Source: Mailhella sp. (GTDB taxonomy: Bacteria; Desulfobacterota; Desulfovibrionia; Desulfovibrionales; Desulfovibrionaceae). Taken from it: a stretch of DNA of 64,000 nucleotides. Below the pieces are notes generated by a model. That model did no database searches, was not told where the DNA came from, and was given only the letters and a program-made list of their open reading frames with translations. Below are positions 15,116 through 28,088 of this stretch, one piece after another. A program made the position numbers and the translations under genes. The first letter of the stretch is position 1. The number at the start of each line of letters is the position of its first letter. The stretch spans positions 62,001 to 126,000 of the forward strand of contig JAFQTU010000075.1 of the NCBI GenBank assembly GCA_017408905.1, read 5' to 3'.

Positions 15116-15160
15116 TTCGTTCAGCAAAGACGTTATCTGCCTGCGGGCAGTGCCCATATT

Positions 15161-15276
15161 TGCTGGTGTCCATAGAGAAGAGGGTATACCCGATCCCATT
15201 CCGAACTCGGCAGTCAAGCTCTTCATCGCCCATGATACTGCATACTTTTGTGTGGGAAAGTAGGCCGATGCCAGCA
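15161..15276 (+). rRNA. rrf: 5S ribosomal RNA (isolated)
   Basis: A 116-nt sequence with the 5S architecture: helix I ends TGCTGG and CCAGCA pair, the conserved loop B/C block CCCGATCCCATTCCGAAC is at about 15189-15206, followed by TCGGCAGTCAAGC, then the helix IV/loop E region and GTGTGGGAAAGTAGG. No 23S or 16S sequence precedes it: the upstream neighbour is a sulfatase-family gene ending 96 bp away. It is followed by a terminator. It therefore appears to be transcribed on its own rather than within an rrn operon. Confidence 0.95.
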
Positions 15277-15286
15277 TTATCTTCAG

Positions 15287-15317
15287 CCCCTGCGGTACTC
15301 GCGGGGGTTTTCTTTTT
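15287..15317 (+). terminator. Intrinsic terminator of 5S rRNA
   Basis: CCCCTGCG (15287-15294) pairs with CGCGGGGG (15300-15307), followed by a T-rich tract to 15317. Confidence 0.8.
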
Positions 15318-15351
15318 ATCTGTCATTTTCGCTATGTCGGCAGGAGGGAGC

Positions 15352-15753
15352 ATGGAAAAGGTGACCAAGGAAGTCATGGGGGCCGTATTCTACAAGGATG
15401 GCCGCATCCTCGTCATGCGCCGCGCTCCTTTCCTGAGCTGGGCCGGATGGTGGGAATTCCCCGGCGGCAAGCGCGAAAAAGGCGAGAGCAACGAACAGTG
15501 CCTTGCCCGTGAACTGCGGGAAGAGCTGGAGGTGGAAGCCGAGATAGGCGAATTCCTCACGGAGAACAGCCACGGCTACGATTTCGGAACGGTGCACCTT
15601 TCCGTGTACCGCGTGAAGTCGTGGACGGGTGATATCAGGCTTAACGTGCACGACGCCCTGCACTGGGTCCCCCTGAAGGAACTGGCGGACTTCCCCCAGC
15701 TCCTTCCCGCCGATATCCCCGTGGCCCGGGCACTGGAAAACATACTCGACTGA
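15352..15753 (+). CDS. mutT: 8-oxo-dGTP diphosphatase / (deoxy)nucleoside triphosphate pyrophosphohydrolase, MutT type
   Basis: A 133-residue Nudix hydrolase that sanitises oxidised nucleotides. The complete Nudix box is at about residues 38-60: GGKREKGESNEQCLARELREELEV read in parts as GGKxExGE then RELREEL, with all catalytic glutamates. A 5' VMGAVFYKDGRILVMRRA strand and C-terminal LKELADFPQLLPAD element match MutT and related CTP pyrophosphohydrolases. The ATG at 15352 has an excellent AGGAGGGAG ribosome-binding site. It lies immediately after the 5S terminator and converges on the FmdE gene. Confidence 0.9.
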   Translation: MEKVTKEVMGAVFYKDGRILVMRRAPFLSWAGWWEFPGGKREKGESNEQCLARELREELEVEAEIGEFLTENSHGYDFGTVHLSVYRVKSWTGDIRLNVHDALHWVPLKELADFPQLLPADIPVARALENILD

Positions 15754-15807: not shown

Positions 15808-16416
15808 CTATTTCTCGGCACAGTCCATGCAGAGCTGGCGGCCATCCTGCTCGACGATGCGGGAGGACATGACGCCTTCGCCGCAGTTCTCGCAGAGTAT
15901 CGTGGGCAGGCGCTGGGCCATGCCGGGCATATCGTGCAGGGCGGGCTTGATGTCGAAGATTTCCTCGAAGGGAGCGGAAAGTACGAACTCAAGGTCTTTT
16001 TTCCTGAGTTCCGCCAGCTCTTCATCCAGCCTCCGCCGAGTTTCTGCCGGAAGCCCCTCGGCGGCCAGCTCTTCCCGCAGGCCAAGGATGCGGCTCTTGA
16101 CCTCGCCGCCCCGGAGCTTGGCAACGATGCGCCGCTGTTTCCCGTCGCGCCTGCGGTAGAAGGTGAAGGCTATCTTGCCCGTGTCGCGGAAGAGGAGATT
16201 GCCCTTGCCGAGGGTACAGCCCACAAGGGCCTGGATGGCGTCCACGCCGCACATATCGGTTTCCGTTACGGCCACGACCTCTTCATCGGCGGCAGTCCCG
16301 AAGTTCTCCACGGCCCACACTGCCGCCCGTATGCCAAGGGCCAGCCCGCCGCACCAATGCCCGTGGAAGGCCTTGGCCCTGTCTATGATGTCCTGTGTTA
16401 TTCCCTGTGCGTACAT
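15808..16416 (-). CDS. FmdE-family protein (formylmethanofuran dehydrogenase subunit E-like) with C-terminal zinc ribbon
   Basis: 202 aa. The FmdE core has FHGHWCGGLALGIRA near residue 18 and the metal-site region TDMCGVDAIQALVGCTLGKGNL at about 54-75. The hinge after LREELAAEG is charged and helical. The last 45 residues form a four-cysteine zinc ribbon (CENCGEG and CMDCAEK). FmdE proteins accompany molybdenum/tungsten enzymes and metal transport; the molecular role is unsettled. Canonical FHGHxCPG reads WCGG here. I preferred ATG 16416 (AAGAGA upstream) over the TTG at 16452. It is the last gene of a four-gene operon with a FecBCD-type importer, suggesting metal or metal-chelate handling. 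Confidence 0.85.
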   Translation of the reverse strand: MYAQGITQDIIDRAKAFHGHWCGGLALGIRAAVWAVENFGTAADEEVVAVTETDMCGVDAIQALVGCTLGKGNLLFRDTGKIAFTFYRRRDGKQRRIVAKLRGGEVKSRILGLREELAAEGLPAETRRRLDEELAELRKKDLEFVLSAPFEEIFDIKPALHDMPGMAQRLPTILCENCGEGVMSSRIVEQDGRQLCMDCAEK

Positions 16417-16438
16417 GGTGTATCTCTTGGGTTGGGGT

Positions 16439-17320
16439 TCAGTCTCTGCCAAGGCTGGGGCAGACCATGCTGGCCCTGCCTGTTCCGAGGCGCAGGCATT
16501 GCGGGCCGTAGATATGCTGGAGCAGTTCCTGCGTTACGACTTCCGCCGAAGGGCCTTCGGCGCAGATGCGGCCCTGGTGCATCACGGCGGCCTTGTCGCA
16601 GAACCAGAGTATGTGGTTGGGGTCATGGCAGCAGACGAGCACGGCCACGCCTTGGGAAGCGACTTCCCGCAGTACGTTCCACACCGAAAGCTGATTGCTG
16701 AAGTCGAGCGAGCTGGTCGGTTCGTCCAGAAGGACGAGCGGCGTCTGCTGGGCCATAGCCCGGGCAATGAGCACAAGCTGGCGCTGGCCGCCGGAAAGCT
16801 GGTTGCAGGGGCGCTCCGCAAGGTGGAGGATGCCGATACGCGCCATGGCCTCTTCCGCTATCCGCTCATCGTCGCGGCGGAGGCGGAACCATCCGGCCAT
16901 CTTCGGACTGCGGCCCATGAGCACCATGTCCCGCGCGGAGAAGGGGAAGGGCTGGCGATGTTCCTGCGGTACATAGGCTACGTGGGCCGCAAGGGCGGAG
17001 GGCTTCATGTGGGCGATGTTCACGCCATGGACACGGACGTGCCCCTTCTGCGGGTGCAGAAAACCCATACAGCAGCGGAACAGCGTGGATTTCCCGCATC
17101 CGTTCGGGCCGAGCAGGCCGCATATCTCGCCCGGCTTCACGCTGAGGGAAATATCGTCGAGCACGCCATGCTGACCGTAGGAGAAGGAAAGGCCGCGTAT
17201 GTCGAGGGCTCTGCCGGGCATGGCGGGCGCGGGCGCAGGCGAAGAGGCGGCATGGCGGTGAAGGAAGCTCCACAGCGTGCTTTTTTCTTCGCCTTCATGG
17301 AGCATCAGGTCAGCTTCCAT
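16439..17320 (-). CDS. ABC transporter ATP-binding protein, FecE/BtuD type
   Basis: 293 aa. An extra N-terminal segment of about 35 residues precedes the ATPase. Walker A GLLGPNGCGKSTLF is near residue 69, the Q-loop lies in YVPQEHRQPF, the signature is LSGGQRQLVLIARAM, Walker B is LVLLDEPTSSLD, and the switch His is in VCCHDPNH. These match importers of iron-siderophore, haem, cobalamin or molybdate. The start at 17320 has GGGGAGGG upstream and overlaps the permease stop by 11 bases. It energises the permease encoded by the next gene upstream. Confidence 0.93.
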   Translation of the reverse strand: MEADLMLHEGEEKSTLWSFLHRHAASSPAPAPAMPGRALDIRGLSFSYGQHGVLDDISLSVKPGEICGLLGPNGCGKSTLFRCCMGFLHPQKGHVRVHGVNIAHMKPSALAAHVAYVPQEHRQPFPFSARDMVLMGRSPKMAGWFRLRRDDERIAEEAMARIGILHLAERPCNQLSGGQRQLVLIARAMAQQTPLVLLDEPTSSLDFSNQLSVWNVLREVASQGVAVLVCCHDPNHILWFCDKAAVMHQGRICAEGPSAEVVTQELLQHIYGPQCLRLGTGRASMVCPSLGRD

Positions 17321-18326
17321 AGGATTCCCTCCCCTTGGCGCGCAGGAGCCAGAGCAGATAGGGAGCGCCGACGATGGAGGTGACAATGCCGAGGGGGATC
17401 TCGGCCCCGGTCAGCGTACGGGCCAGCGTGTCGCAGAGGAGCAGGTACAGCGCACCGAGTATGCCCGATGCCGGTATGACCCAGCGATTGTCCGGCCCGA
17501 AGAGCATACGGGCGGCATGGGGCATCATCAGGCCTACCCATGCGATGATACCTGCCGCAGACACGCAGACCGAGGCGGCAAGCGTGGCAAGCACGATGAA
17601 GGCGGCCCGGCAGAGGTCGGGCTGGAGGCCAAGGCTTCGCGCTTCCTCGTCGCCCAGCGAAAGGATGTTCAGCTTCCATGCCAGCGCCGTGAGCAGGGCA
17701 AGGCAGGGGAACACCGTGCAGGCGGTGACGAAAACGTCCTGCCAGCCCGCGTAGTAGAAGCCGCCCATCATCCAGAAGGTTATCTCGCGCAGTTCCGTAT
17801 CGCTGGAAACATACTTCATGATACCCACGAAGGCCGAGAACAGGGAGCCTACGATAATGCCGGACAGCACCAGCGTGACGGGCGGCGTTTCTCCGCTCGT
17901 CCGAGCAAGGAAGAAGGAGAGCAGGACTGCGAGAAGGGCGAAGAGAAAAGCCGAGACCTGCCCGTTGGGAAAAAGCAGGGGGAAGACGACCGCAAGGGAA
18001 GCACCCCACGCCGCCCCGGCCGACACGCCGAGGATGTACGGCTCCACAAGCGGGTTGCGGAAACAGCCCTGATAAACAGCGCCCGAAGCGGCCATAGCCA
18101 TTCCGGTGACGCAGGCCAGCAGAAGGCGGGGCATACGGATATCCCACACGATAAGCTCGTGCATCCTGTCCGCAGGCCCGGCCAGCCCGAGCTTGGACAG
18201 GAGGACGGCGGCGGTATCGGCAAAGCGGATATCGTAGCTGCCTGCGCCAAGCGAGAGCACAAAGCCGGAGAGCAGGGCCGCGCAGAGCAGAAGGGCGATA
18301 CAGGAGCGGAGTTTTCGCAGCATCAT
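17310..18326 (-). CDS. Iron/metal-chelate ABC transporter permease, FecCD/BtuC family
   Basis: A 338-residue inner-membrane permease with about ten helices and the family landmarks RMPRLLLACVTGMAMAASGA near residue 64, NPLVEPYILGVSAGAAWGAS near 92, and the C-terminal coupling region GLMMPHAARMLFG. No second permease gene is present, so it should act as a homodimer, as in BtuC. It starts 6 bp after the binding-protein gene and overlaps the ATPase gene. Substrate class: siderophore, haem, cobalamin or molybdate; not resolvable from sequence. Confidence 0.93.
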   Translation of the reverse strand: MMLRKLRSCIALLLCAALLSGFVLSLGAGSYDIRFADTAAVLLSKLGLAGPADRMHELIVWDIRMPRLLLACVTGMAMAASGAVYQGCFRNPLVEPYILGVSAGAAWGASLAVVFPLLFPNGQVSAFLFALLAVLLSFFLARTSGETPPVTLVLSGIIVGSLFSAFVGIMKYVSSDTELREITFWMMGGFYYAGWQDVFVTACTVFPCLALLTALAWKLNILSLGDEEARSLGLQPDLCRAAFIVLATLAASVCVSAAGIIAWVGLMMPHAARMLFGPDNRWVIPASGILGALYLLLCDTLARTLTGAEIPLGIVTSIVGAPYLLWLLRAKGRESYGS

Positions 18327-18332
18327 GCCCGC

Positions 18333-19520
18333 CTAAAAGCCGCTTCCGGCCATCCAGTCCAGAAGCTGGGTGGAACGAAGGCCGCGTGCCTGCTCCACAT
18401 CCACGCCATAGACTTTCTGGTAGAATTCCAGCGCGAAGTCGTAAACATTGACGTCGGCAAAGCGTTCGGGGTAGGCCGCCTTGGCGATGATGAGCATATC
18501 CAGCGGATATTCCACGCGGCGGGAGGCGTTCTTGGGCGACCACGGGAGCGCGAACACCTTTTTCTGCTTCACGGCGCGCAGTTCGCGCAGGCTGGCATAG
18601 TAGGGCGCTTCGTACAGTTCCCGGGGCGGATGATAGCCGCTGGCCGTGGGGAGCAGGATGATATCGGGGTCGCAGGCGTAGATCTGTTCCGTGCTCATGG
18701 GGATACCGCTTCCCTTGCCCCGGAAGGCGTTCCGCGCGTTCACCACGGATTCTATGATGTAGGATTCCGGGGTGTCTGTGCCGTGCACAGCCCCGGCCCC
18801 TCCCTTCCGGCGTATGTCGGGCCGCAGGCCGAGCAGGAGCATGGCGGGCTTTCTCTCTTCGGGAACGGAGGCCGTCCTTTCGCGTATCATGCGTTCCGTA
18901 CCGGCAAGGAAATCGGCAAGGGCCTCGGCTTTTTCCTTCTGTCCGAAGGCTTCCCCCAGGATGGAGGCTTCGGCCTTTATGGTGCTGAGATCGGAAGCGC
19001 GGAACCATGACGGCGAGTAGAGCACGAGCAGGGGAAAGCCCATGCCTTCGATGGCCGCGATGGTCCGGGCTGCCTTTTCCCTGTCCGTACCCACGGGGGT
19101 GTCGCCCACGCGCAGGACGACGAGGTCGGGCTTGGCGGCGGCCAGCGTTTCGAAGCTGAGGGCGTTGCCCTGAGGGGCGTTGACGCAGGGCAGGTCGTCG
19201 AGCCACGGATGCAGGAATCGCATGGTGTGCAGACCGGCGAGTTCGTAGCTTTCGCCGGATACCGTAGTGAAGCGGTAGCGGTAATCGCGCTTCATGGCCC
19301 ATGAGCCTATGGCCTTCACCCGGTCTATCACGCCCAGATGCGTCATCACGCCTTCCACGAATCCGTCGTCGATGGTGGCCACGGCCTTCGGTTCATCGGG
19401 GATATCCACCGCTTTGCCGCGCATATCCGTGACTGTCCGCGCCCCGGCACTCGGGGCCGTAAGCGCAAGGCAGAGCAGAAGGGCGGCAATGCCGCAGGCA
19501 GGCTGGATGGGCGACAGCAT
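18333..19520 (-). CDS. Periplasmic substrate-binding protein of the FecBCD-type importer
   Basis: 395 aa. An N-terminal signal peptide covers about residues 1-27 (hydrophobic core then SAGA-RT). There is no lipobox cysteine, so it is probably a soluble periplasmic protein. The class III (FepB/BtuF-like) binding fold is indicated by the DDGFVEGVMTHLGVIDRVKA segment, LAAAKPDLVVLRVGD near 125 and the connecting long helix. It initiates the operon with permease, ATPase and the FmdE-like protein. It is longer than typical family members (about 300 aa), with insertions around residues 230-270. Confidence 0.87.
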   Translation of the reverse strand: MLSPIQPACGIAALLLCLALTAPSAGARTVTDMRGKAVDIPDEPKAVATIDDGFVEGVMTHLGVIDRVKAIGSWAMKRDYRYRFTTVSGESYELAGLHTMRFLHPWLDDLPCVNAPQGNALSFETLAAAKPDLVVLRVGDTPVGTDREKAARTIAAIEGMGFPLLVLYSPSWFRASDLSTIKAEASILGEAFGQKEKAEALADFLAGTERMIRERTASVPEERKPAMLLLGLRPDIRRKGGAGAVHGTDTPESYIIESVVNARNAFRGKGSGIPMSTEQIYACDPDIILLPTASGYHPPRELYEAPYYASLRELRAVKQKKVFALPWSPKNASRRVEYPLDMLIIAKAAYPERFADVNVYDFALEFYQKVYGVDVEQARGLRSTQLLDWMAGSGF

Positions 19521-19628
19521 GGAAACCTCGGAAAAGCGGGGATGGGAAAGCGCGAGTCAACACCTGTTGGGATAGCACCGATGGCGAAAAATCTCCATGA
19601 GAAATATGCGGCCGGAAGGGTGCTCCCC

Positions 19629-19659
19629 AAAAAGAAAGGCCCGGTCTCCCAGGCCTTTT
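19629..19659 (-). terminator. Intrinsic terminator downstream of the nitroreductase gene
   Basis: Arms AAAGGCC (19635-19641) and GGCCTTT (19652-19658), with A-rich plus-strand sequence at 19629-19633 giving a U-run on the minus strand. Confidence 0.7.
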
Positions 19660-19674
19660 CCAAGCGTCAAGGTG

Positions 19675-20253
19675 TTACTTGTTCAGGATGATGGCTTCTT
19701 CCAGCGTGATCTTCGGCACGCAGTGCACGTCGTTTGCATCACGGTAGTAGATGAGCTTGCCGTCTTCGCGGCGCTCCACAAGGCGCACTTCCTCGTCGGA
19801 AGCGCCGAGGGCCAGCACCAGCTTGACCTTCAGCTCTTCGGGAAGGCCGAGAAGGGCGGCGGCCTCGTCCTTCTTCACCGCGCCTATCATGCAGGTGCGG
19901 AATCCGGCTTCGCAGGCGGCGAGGTTGATGCTCTGGGCGGCGATGCCGACATCCATGGTGGCGAAGTCGTCCATCTTGTCAGGGCCGCATATCACGATGT
20001 AGGCCCCGGGGCGCTGGGCGTCGGTGGCGCGCTGTTCAGGGGTGAGAGCACCGCCCAGAACCACAAGGCCGTTCATGGCGGCGCGGGTCTCGGCATCCGT
20101 GACCGTGACATAGCGCAGGCACTGGGCGTTGCGGGCGGAAGCGGAAAGGCGGGCGCAGTCGATGAAGGACGCCAGCGTTTCGGCGGAAAGCGTGATGTCG
20201 CCCTTGAAGCGGCGGCAGGTGCGGGCCTTGGTGATGAGTTCTTTCAGGGCCAT
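19675..20253 (-). CDS. Nitroreductase-family flavoprotein
   Basis: 192 aa with the FMN-binding nitroreductase fold. The N-terminal phosphate-contact motif is KARTCRRFKGD (residues 9-19), followed by SASARNAQCLRYV, then IAAQSINLAACEAGFRTCMIGAV near 100 and ALGASDEE near 150. Such enzymes transfer hydride to nitro compounds, quinones or flavins; the substrate is unknown. It has an AAGGAGAG ribosome-binding site before the ATG at 20253, and its own terminator. It is short relative to NfsB (about 217 aa) and resembles ferredoxin-type two-domain relatives only in the flavin domain. Confidence 0.85.
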   Translation of the reverse strand: MALKELITKARTCRRFKGDITLSAETLASFIDCARLSASARNAQCLRYVTVTDAETRAAMNGLVVLGGALTPEQRATDAQRPGAYIVICGPDKMDDFATMDVGIAAQSINLAACEAGFRTCMIGAVKKDEAAALLGLPEELKVKLVLALGASDEEVRLVERREDGKLIYYRDANDVHCVPKITLEEAIILNK

Positions 20254-20302
20254 GTCATTCTCTCCTTGGGTTGGGAAAACTCGTAGTATGCAGAAAAACA
20301 GG

Positions 20303-20333
20303 AAAAAGCCCCTCCATCATAAGACGAAGGGGC
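20303..20333 (-). terminator. Intrinsic terminator of the ZraP-like gene
   Basis: Arms GCCCCT (20308-20313) and AGGGGC (20328-20333). The plus-strand A-run at 20303-20307 gives a U-tract on the minus strand. It lies 53 bp past the ZraP-like stop. Confidence 0.75.
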
Positions 20334-20386
20334 ATAAACGGCAAGTTCAGCCGTGCCGTTTGGAAAAAATGGCGGAATCAGGTCAA

Positions 20387-21058
20387 TCAGCGCTGGGTTT
20401 CACAGCCGCCATGACGGGGGCCGGGGCGATGGGCGTCGTGCCAGCCTTCGGCACGGGGGCAGCGGGGGGCGCAGTCGCCATGCCAGCCGCGTTCACCGTG
20501 GAAGGGGCGGGGGCAGCGTTCGCCGCGAAGGCCGTGTTCAGGGCCGTGGAAGCGCTTGCCGCGAGGGCCGCCGATCTTGGCCATTTCCTTACGGAATTCG
20601 CCCTTCATGGTGCGTATCTCTTCGCGCAGGGAGAGAATCTCGGCTACAAGGGCCTTCAGCTCTTCGGGCTTCGCGTTGGGGTTGGGGGAGAGCGCTTCAA
20701 GTTCCATCTGCTTCTGCACCAGCTTCTTGTGAAGGGGCGCGACGGCGGCATGATGTTCCTTGATGAGCTTTTCCCGCTGGGCCTTGCGTTCTGCGGCCTT
20801 CTTGGCGAGTTCAGCGCGCTTTTCCTTGAGTTCGGCGCGCTTGGCTTCGCACTGGGCCTTCAGTTCGGCCTTCTGTTCTTCGGTCAGTTTGGCTTCCGCT
20901 CCGGGGCAGGCCTTGTGGGGCAGGCCATGTTCACAGCCTATCATGTGGCGGGGGCAGGGGCGGGAAGCCTGTTCGGCATCGGCGGCCATAGCGGCGACAG
21001 GGGCGGCGGCGATAACAGCGGCGGCCAGAAGGGAGAGAATGAGATTCTGAGCTTTCAT
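20387..21058 (-). CDS. ZraP/Spy-type periplasmic metal-binding protein
   Basis: 223 aa with a signal peptide (about residues 1-26). A long charged helical domain follows (LTEEQKAELKAQCEAKRAEL and LHKKLVQKQMELEAL segments), with the family sequence NAKPEELKALVAEI near 130. The last 55 residues are rich in His, Cys, Gly and Arg and probably bind metal. ZraP-family chaperones bind zinc and repress the envelope-stress two-component system; no such sensor is encoded nearby. The protein is longer than typical ZraP (about 140-150 aa) owing to the His/Cys tail. The ribosome-binding site is AAGGA. It is monocistronic. Confidence 0.8.
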   Translation of the reverse strand: MKAQNLILSLLAAAVIAAAPVAAMAADAEQASRPCPRHMIGCEHGLPHKACPGAEAKLTEEQKAELKAQCEAKRAELKEKRAELAKKAAERKAQREKLIKEHHAAVAPLHKKLVQKQMELEALSPNPNAKPEELKALVAEILSLREEIRTMKGEFRKEMAKIGGPRGKRFHGPEHGLRGERCPRPFHGERGWHGDCAPRCPRAEGWHDAHRPGPRHGGCETQR

Positions 21059-26359: not shown

Positions 26360-26444
26360 GTAAAGAAGGCTATGGGTCCTGACCTGTCTGCCGTTTTGGC
26401 GGAGGGCTTCATGGCCATCGAACAATCTACCAGTGGAGAGTGTA

Positions 26445-27701
26445 ATGGCTCGTATTACCATGGAGCATGTGCAGTATGAAGCCCATGTCCCCGCGGTTGG
26501 CACCAACCCGGATACCATCGGCTTCGTACAGATAGACCCCAAGAAGTGCATTGGCTGCGACACCTGCCAGCGCTACTGCCCTGTCGATGCCATCTACGGC
26601 GAATCCGGCAAGGCTCACACCATCCCTCATCATGAAGCCTGCATCAACTGCGGTCAGTGCCTTGTTCACTGCCCCCAGGGTGCTATTTACGAACAGAACA
26701 CCTGGATCCCCGAAATCGAGAAGAAGCTGGCCGACAAGAACGTCAAGGTCATCGCCATGCCCGCTCCTGCCGTCCGCTACGCCCTTGGCGAAGCCTTCGG
26801 TATGCCCGTCGGCTCCGTGACCCATGGCCGTATGCTCACCGCGTTCAAGGAACTCGGCTTCGCCCACTGCTGGGACGTTGAATTCACCGCCGACCTTACC
26901 ATCTGGGAAGAAGGCCATGAATTCCTCGAACGCCTCACCAAGGGCAAGGGCACTCTGCCTCAGTTCACTTCCTGCTGCCCCGGCTGGCAGAAGTACTGCG
27001 AAACCTACTATCCCGACCTGCTGCCCAACTTCTCCTCCGCCAAGTCTCCCGTTGGTATGAGCGGCCCCCTTGCCAAGACCTACGGTGCTGAACAGCGCGG
27101 CTACGATCCCAAGCAGGTTTACACCGTTTCCATCATGCCCTGCGTGGCTAAGAAGTATGAAGGTCTCCGCCCTGAATACAACGCCAGCGGCCTGCGTGAT
27201 ATCGACGCTACCATCAACACCCGCGAACTCGCCTACCTCATCAAGAAGCACGGTATCGACCTTTCCCGTCTGCCTGAAGCTACGGAATGCGACGACCTCA
27301 TGGGCGAAGGTACGGGCGCCGCTACCATCTTCGGCGTTACCGGCGGTGTTATGGAAGCTGCCCTCCGCTTCGCTTACGAAGCCGTTGTGGGCAAGAAGCC
27401 CGGCAAGTGGGATTTCCATCCCGTGCGCGGCATGGAAGGCTTCCGTGAAGCTACCATCAACGTGGGCGGTGTTGACGTCAAGGTCGCCATCGTGCACGGC
27501 GCTAAGAACTTCCCCGCCGTCCTGAATCAGGTGCGCGAGGGCAAGTCCCCCTATCACTTTATCGAATTCATGGCCTGCCCCGGCGGCTGCGTGTGTGGTG
27601 GCGGTCAGCCCATCATGCCCACCGTTTGGGACGTGTTCGAACGCAAGACCGGTCAGCTCTTCGCCGACTTCAGACAGCGCCTCGAAGACGCGCAGGCATA
27701 A
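26445..27701 (+). CDS. hydA: Periplasmic [FeFe]-hydrogenase large subunit
   Basis: A 418-residue catalytic subunit that oxidises or evolves H2. Two [4Fe-4S] motifs are near the N-terminus: [12 protein letters not shown] near residue 36 and [12 protein letters not shown] near 67. H-cluster motifs follow in order: TSCCPGW near 175, MPCVAKKYE near 231, and [15 protein letters not shown] near 375. The sequence closely follows the Desulfovibrio vulgaris periplasmic enzyme in organisation. It has no signal peptide of its own and is exported as a complex with HydB, which supplies the Tat signal. Start ATG 26445 has GGAGAG upstream; an in-frame ATG lies 12 bases earlier. H-cluster maturases HydEFG are not in the window. 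Confidence 0.97.
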
Positions 27702-27710
27702 GGAGATACT

Positions 27711-28088
27711 ATGTCCATCATGAGCATCACTCGTCGTAGTTTTCTCCGTGGCTGCTGCATCATCACTGGCGGCCTCGCCTTCGGTGTCCACTGGACCGGC
27801 CGCGCTGTCGCTGCCGCTCTCAGTGTGAAGGAACACATGGTTGCCCGTATCGCCAGCGTGTACCGCGAAGATAAGCGCTATCCTTCCCGTACCTCCATGG
27901 ACAACGAACAGGTCAAGCTTCTGTACAAGAAGTTCCTTGGCAAGCCCCTGGATGAAAAGGCCCACCATCTGCTTCACAATCACTGGATCGACAAGTCCGC
28001 CGCTGTGAAGAAGTTGCACGCCGCCGGTCAGTATCCCGGTCCTCGTGGCGGTGAATTCCGTCATAAGATGTATCCTCACGAACGCTAA
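27711..28088 (+). CDS. hydB: Periplasmic [FeFe]-hydrogenase small subunit with Tat signal
   Basis: 125 aa. An N-terminal twin-arginine signal (TRRSFLRGCC at residues 8-17) is followed by a hydrophobic stretch ending near AVAAALS. The mature part is a short helical belt-like domain (SMDNEQVKLLYKKFLGKP and HHLLHNHWID), matching the Desulfovibrio small subunit that wraps around HydA. It carries the export signal for the heterodimer. The gene begins 9 bp after hydA and ends at a strong terminator. Confidence 0.95.
   Translation: MSIMSITRRSFLRGCCIITGGLAFGVHWTGRAVAAALSVKEHMVARIASVYREDKRYPSRTSMDNEQVKLLYKKFLGKPLDEKAHHLLHNHWIDKSAAVKKLHAAGQYPGPRGGEFRHKMYPHER

Follow-up and report, generated by a model that had tools for sequence, protein, structure and literature searches.

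The stretch analyzed here, hereafter the window, comprises 64,000 nucleotides of Mailhella sp. (Desulfovibrionaceae; contig JAFQTU010000075.1, positions 62,001 to 126,000 of the forward strand), and the element in question is an operon in which an ABC importer of the FecBCD class is accompanied by a gene for an FmdE-like protein (Table 1). The four genes lie where the sequence-only reading, made from the letters and their open reading frames, had placed them, head to tail on the minus strand and each with its Pfam domain. The spacing is as short as that reading described: six bases separate the end of the binding protein gene from the start of the permease gene, and the FmdE and ATPase genes overlap by 14 bases. 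The ATPase frame as listed, which opens with TTG, overlaps the permease gene by 77 bases; the ABC domain does not set in until about residue 60-76, which makes a real start further downstream probable. The reading frames of the operon are intact, and the presence in one operon of a FecCD permease, a Peripla_BP_2 binding protein and an ABC ATPase assigns the system by Pfam to the FecBCD class. Given one hairpin at 19658-19635 and another after FmdE, the four genes seem to be transcribed together; the second hairpin was read by eye and is absent from the computed list, and terminator-like hairpins are no commoner in the region than in shuffled sequences (3 found vs 3.7 expected). In the interpretation that we favor as the probable one, nickel is brought in by an ABC importer of the FecBCD class (type II) encoded in the operon, and FmdE is the cytosolic partner that takes the metal.

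Table 1. Coordinates of the importer operon and its promoter side in the window
Feature	Position	Strand	Evidence or remark
Periplasmic binding protein, FecB/TroA-like, 395 aa	18333..19520	-	Pfam Peripla_BP_2, 53.2 bits
FecCD permease, single gene, 338 aa	17310..18326	-	Pfam FecCD, 309.0 bits
ABC ATPase, FecE/BtuD type	16439..17386	-	Pfam ABC_tran, 120.7 bits
FmdE, two-domain	15808..16452	-	Pfam FmdE, 125.6 bits, plus dksA/traR C4 zinc finger
Operon promoter region	19521..19634	-	Alignment with six related Mailhella-type loci
Terminator-like hairpin 3' of the upstream nitroreductase gene	19635..19658	-	Parts the nitroreductase gene from the operon

FmdE proteins are widespread in anaerobes, have no assigned function and are named after molybdenum enzymes. 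In the window, the score of the core domain PF02663 (Table 1) compares with a curated cut-off of 22.9 bits, and the structure model (predicted local distance difference test, pLDDT, 90.0) matches the solved proteins 2gvi, 2glz and 3d00. The residues of a metal site of the 2glz/2gvi type are present in conserved columns (His30, His32, Cys34 and Cys68), and a C-terminal zinc finger is made up of Cys187, Cys190, Cys208 and Cys211. The ligand pattern, HxHxC plus a further Cys, was taken from the structural sections of Axelrod et al. 2010 (PMC2954224), where 2glz is described as having a mixture of zinc and nickel at a site formed by two His and two Cys, two of these four ligands being replaced in 3d00. 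Seen against these sections, the window protein has the same core as all three structures, the metal site of 2glz and 2gvi and the zinc finger of 2gvi and 3d00, while 3d00 misses two metal ligands like a clade of FmdEs linked to the permease ModB that is described below.

The importer proteins resemble carriers of several substrates. The solved chains closest to the binding protein model (pLDDT 90.5) are 4ovk, 4hn9, MolA 3psa, 2etv, YiuA and the Helicobacter pylori CeuE with Ni-His, and their substrates differ (iron for YiuA, Ni-His for CeuE, molybdate for MolA). Among the sequences of the Protein Data Bank, the permease matches MolB HI1471 best (2nq2, 204 bits), with the haem permease HmuU nearly tied (4g1u, 197 bits). 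As the fold and permease neighbors allow molybdate, nickel or iron, the fold cannot decide the metal. This diversity among the nearest folds is congruent with an importer for some other metal chelate (iron, cobalt or zinc) that would be under NikR control in some lineages, a reading that we regard as unlikely in view of the specificity of the regulatory boxes and their co-occurrence with NikR, both presented below. It draws further on the TonB receptors beside loci L112, L122, L123 and L182, which score best with siderophore/haem subfamilies (all below cut-off), and on one FmdE that lies tail to tail with a cobalt-type CbiM/CbiQ importer. A cobalamin or corrinoid importer of the BtuFCD kind is suggested by NCBIfam, in which the best permease match is BtuC; yet the scores stay far below the cut-offs (254.7 of 461; 207.5 of 334), and the top matches of the ATPase are to corrinoid, FecE and haem-type ATPases, every one below its cut-off. 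L112 does have a cobalamin riboswitch, which stands before another gene, about 1.6 kb 3' of the ATPase of the operon. Nevertheless, none was found in the 6 + 26 other loci scanned, and 4 of the 29 genomes that carry the binding protein, three of them metagenome-assembled, are without a match to the B12-binding domain PF02310, so that corrinoid import is hardly credible. More generally, the operons of 33 hand-picked loci have no riboswitch detected beside them, and none reaches the gathering threshold anywhere in the window; the matches at 19300-20500 are weak and all far below gathering scores.

The solitary permease noted in the sequence-only reading is confirmed at the level of the genome, as this is the sole FecCD gene (PF01032 match) of the window genome, and the channel may be a homodimer. 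To follow the association of the importer with FmdE, 38 loci of the same family that have a two-domain FmdE (L033-L070) were chosen by hand among the matches listed, passing over those of the long fused kind. By phmmer, FmdE has a FecCD permease next to it in 35 of these 38, and all four genes are found in 32. The permease match is missing in L035, L039 and L055, and the binding protein match alone in L060, L064 and L066; outside the 38, of two loci with fused FmdEs, L071 has a full importer and L072 does not. The genes flanking the operons vary between loci of the family. The association between FmdE and the importer is not due to chance. Two versions of the operon can be told apart, a common one (29 of 34 aligned binding proteins) and that of the window (5/34), with very different binding proteins and similar FmdEs. 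A scan of named genomes for the window-type binding protein returned 39 loci, a few of them in genomes also represented among the family loci, from Mailhella, other deltaproteobacteria of the gut and the termite gut, Mucispirillum and other Deferribacterota, Helicobacter turcicus, Campylobacter majalis, Methanosarcina, Breznakiella and others. In 22 of these 39 loci FmdE adjoins the importer genes, 3' of the ATPase in five (L102, L104, L105, L107, L113) and 5' of the binding protein in the other 17; a further 17 loci show no adjacent FmdE, and four of those are cut by contig ends or have no permease.

Outside the family, 60 loci were hand-picked across the phylum, L174-L193 from the top of the list and L194-L233 mostly from further down. 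An importer seed lies within 5 kb of FmdE in 20 of them: FecCD in seven, Nik/Opp-type in six (two weak), CbiM/CbiQ in three (one weak) and ModB-like in four. L179, L184 and L187 have FmdE next to, and in the same direction as, Nik/Opp-type importer genes whose binding proteins have NikA as their top NCBIfam model, though at 124, 141 and 108 bits against a cut-off of 393. The fused double ATPase of L179 passes both the dipeptide model (414.9 of 408) and NikD (326.4 of 318.7), each score being summed over two domains, and L186 has CbiM and CbiQ above cut-off. In L182 the genes for FmdE, TonB, ExbB, ExbD, a TonB receptor and FecBCD stand in line. A tree of 84 chosen FmdE sequences places the window protein among FecBCD-linked members and those of L179 and L187, all in one clade of 21 rows (98/98). 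Four ModB-linked FmdEs and a fused FmdE from the window genome form a separate deep clade of nine rows (100/100). The motif HGHxC is found in all 33 tree rows linked to Fec, Nik or Cbi importers, in none of the four ModB-linked ones and not in the fusion; among the remaining rows it is present in 4/4 of the group with a C-terminal match to the fusion nearby, 37/41 without a seed nearby and the single other one. Copies with FHGYAAPG or FHSYAAPG at this position, which have no metal ligands, were also observed, the copy in C27 about 1 kb from ModB.

These results bear on a molybdate or tungstate importer of the MolBCA kind, in which FmdE would hand Mo or W to cofactor assembly. Molybdenum suggested itself at first because of the FmdE-fusion and MobA-like genes beside L071 and L109, but lost ground to nickel in the light of the NikR box, the FmdE tree and the importer types. 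In its favor are the permease scores and the presence of MolA among the nearest folds. Yet the FmdEs next to ModB-like permeases are those of the deep clade without HGHxC, the window genome already has ModB by its fused FmdE, and genome G132 contains a full operon of the common version (L174) and no match to the molybdopterin domain PF00384. With the NikR boxes at related operons in addition, we hold this alternative to be quite improbable, and the link to molybdenum or tungsten toward which the sequence-only reading leaned is not supported, as the window protein groups with FecBCD- and Nik/Opp-linked members. In the phylum-wide set the comparison of FmdE with the molybdopterin domain has no power, the domain occurring in 145 of 148 genomes.

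Evidence that points to nickel comes from the promoters. Alignment of six Mailhella-type relatives with the window revealed a palindrome, GTRRCAC-N13-GTGYYAC, before the binding protein gene of the relatives (in L113 by eye, with three mismatches). According to the passages of Rodionov et al. 2004 (PMC545781) on nickel regulation, the deltaproteobacterial NikR signal is GTGTTAC-[N13/14]-GTAACAC, and a reversed form, GTAACAC-[N13]-GTGTTAC, stands before nickel genes. Both orientations were searched with 13 or 14 spacer bases and at most 2 mismatches of 14 in 210 regions around the starts of binding protein or FmdE genes, many of which are not the first genes. A NikR-type box was found in 19 of these regions, against a mean of 0.50 and a maximum of 3 for 120 shuffled half-sites; when the loci that had prompted the search are left out, it is found in 14/200 (shuffles: mean 0.49, maximum 3). 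Spacings of 9/10, 11/12, 15/16 and 17/18 gave 4, 1, 4 and 0 of the 210 regions. In an earlier count, boxes stood at 11/73 binding protein starts and in 8/16 operons that begin with FmdE, vs 29/1760 random 550-base windows of the same loci. Across all loci (2.43 Mb with overlaps) there are 28 distinct sites, 21 of them within 160 bases of a predicted binding protein or FmdE start, five of these 21 in the prompting loci; they occur in Desulfobacterota and Deferribacterota. In the common Desulfovibrionaceae version, the exact half-site is present in 10/29 upstream regions at a background of 0.024 (p about 1e-9 for this one motif). It ranks first by frequency ratio among the 15 7-mers shown, and by frequency difference two others stand above it (13/29 and 14/29 at backgrounds of 0.084 and 0.152). 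The regulator itself follows the box: among the 29 carriers of the binding protein, NikR_C is encoded in 11/11 with a box and 8/18 without (p = 0.002, or 0.005 if L135 is taken as boxless, its site lying before the permease gene), in genomes that are phylogenetically non-independent. In the same 210 regions the enterobacterial NikR consensus had no match and ZUR two, and the ModE consensus had nine when up to 4 mismatches of 16 were allowed and one when up to 3 were. By site and regulator, the operon would thus be under NikR control in many relatives. In L109 and L111 the box stands at about 9.2-9.3 kb. Just upstream of the palindrome region, all seven aligned promoters (L102-L106, L113 and, at about 19570-19605, the window) share the element TTCTCATGG followed by a T-rich run.

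Several observations weigh against a nickel importer with FmdE as its partner. The nearest solved match of the permease is a molybdate transporter, and the nickel in the solved relative of FmdE may, from what the structural account says of its purification, stem from the nickel resin used. In 40 of the 60 phylum loci no seed of any importer type used lies as close as 5 kb to FmdE; peptides may be what the Nik/Opp-type importers carry, with NikA far below cut-off and a dipeptide model as the best for the ATPase, and the CbiMQO genes of L186 are tail to tail with FmdE and outside its operon. No box is found in 191 of the 210 regions, and eight NikR-bearing carriers have none. Across the box from the importer operon, L109 and L111 have a divergent gene that fuses FmdE to a molybdopterin-binding domain (domain check made for L109) and is accompanied by a MobA-like gene. 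This sharing implies that nickel might also affect molybdenum cofactor genes, and a pair of FmdE fusion and MobA-like gene recurs about 9-10 kb away in L063 and L067. Among the 29 carriers, FmdE tracks the molybdopterin domain, found in 22/22 genomes with FmdE vs 4/7 without (p = 0.01), which also speaks for molybdenum or tungsten as the substrate. Seven of the 29 have no FmdE, so that the importer can do without it. The window FmdE has a Gly beside the metal Cys where 39/40 sequences have a Pro, and its excess divergence is the second largest among ten genes compared: in identity to four relatives it falls 11.6 points short of what these share among themselves, with 13.1 for a sulfatase gene and -3.9 to 9.4 for the others. 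Finally, the window genome (G000), which is 97.8% complete, has no match to NikR_C (PF08753) or to NiFe hydrogenase and no recognizable box.

This last exception deserves attention. On the upstream side of 19520, no NikR box is found in 19501-19760 even at up to 5 mismatches of 14, nor one in the 64-kb window at up to 2. NikR_C has one match in each of 41 other genomes marked as the same genus or family, and G286, filed as an uncultured Desulfovibrio, is also without one. NiFe hydrogenase does not track the importer (matches in 21 of 30 genomes, 20 of them over the cut-off, none in the window genome), and the window encodes the large and small subunits of a FeFe hydrogenase at 26433-28088 on the plus strand. 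That regulator, box and a main nickel enzyme are all absent together is in keeping with the box being a NikR site, and the operon of the window genome is probably no longer nickel-repressed.

Nickel import with FmdE as the metal partner could proceed as follows. The imported form would most likely be a small Ni(II) chelate, which the binding protein, to judge from its fold neighbors, may capture in the periplasm. By the gene set and the solved relatives, a permease dimer made from the single gene, with two ATPases, would bring the complex in. Conserved residues and solved relatives suggest that an FmdE dimer would bind the incoming metal at His30/His32/Cys34/Cys68 and that its zinc finger may contact a partner protein. 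The sequence-only reading of a metal or metal-chelate importer with FmdE as the likely intracellular acceptor is therein supported, FmdE acting presumably as an acceptor or as a ligand-stripping enzyme. A bolder version, which we consider doubtful, makes the HGHxC FmdE a cytosolic nickelophore-processing enzyme: a Ni chelate would sit in the dimer cleft, a metal-activated Cys would strip or cleave the ligand, and nickel would be released, by analogy with the action of siderophore esterases for iron. Room for it is left by the account of 2gvi in PMC2954224, whose structural part describes an unexplained ligand 1.8 A from the conserved cysteine and a cleft of roughly 30 A, and by the run of genes in L182. 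Its corollary, that FmdE would be the shared last step of unrelated importers (FecBCD and Nik/Opp in the same operon, CbiMQO as a tail-to-tail neighbor only), we likewise hold with little confidence.

Some known systems are close to this one. NiuBDE of Helicobacter pylori (CeuE/FecDE) is a nickel importer of the FecBCD class, as proposed here, with a binding protein of neighboring fold, which shows that a system of this class can import nickel; NikR control is reported for ceuE and possible for fecDE, and the outer-membrane step is TonB-dependent (FrpB4). In the portions of that report drawn on here (PMC5140060) no FmdE partner is mentioned, and the binding proteins are about 22% identical in structure alignment. 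The NikMQO/NikK nickel regulon of deltaproteobacteria has the same NikR signal in both orientations as the related operons; unlike here, its importer is CbiMNQO-related, and FecBCD with FmdE is not mentioned in the relevant sections (PMC545781). The association itself, which the sequence-only reading did not know to be described, is not new: Axelrod et al. 2010 (PMC2954224) find most PF02663 genes next to genes for metal-ion transporters and suggest that they have a part in the transport of metal ions, while naming, in the sections concerned, no particular metal or regulator for the adjoining transporters. An assignment of FmdE to nickel uptake was not found in the titles or abstract openings of the papers listed by searches of the open-access literature. 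MolBCA of Haemophilus influenzae (HI1470-1472) has a single permease of the MolB type, the best solved match here, and a MolA fold close to that of the binding protein described here; we know of no NikR box or FmdE there.

Other features were recorded beside these operons. Beside the importer in L116, L118 and L134 stands a divergent gene group that encodes a CcdA/DsbD-like and a small membrane protein together with a thioredoxin-like one (typed in L116), and a DsbD-like gene adjoins the importer in the Methanosarcina locus L119. Related proteins of about 625 aa are encoded near the TonB-linked importers (L123, 13254-15146 and 15689-17557; L122, 18124-20010), and a Pfam scan of the first L123 copy and of that of L122 gave no match. 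Large genes near L122, L123, L129 and L110, taken at first for Mo/W enzymes, proved by Pfam to be an MmeI-type methylase, a P-type ATPase, a phosphorylase, a phosphoglucose isomerase and two without a match. In the window, a 5S rRNA gene (15160-15276) overlaps the listed start of a NUDIX frame (15160-15753), so the real start of the latter is further in.

If the HGHxC FmdEs do serve nickel uptake, many annotations as formylmethanofuran dehydrogenase subunit E would be misleading in sulfate reducers and gut bacteria, and a candidate would be gained for the intracellular step of nickel handling. The split between FmdEs with a metal site, linked to FecBCD or Nik/Opp importers, and those without one, linked to ModB, makes the function of FmdE directly testable.

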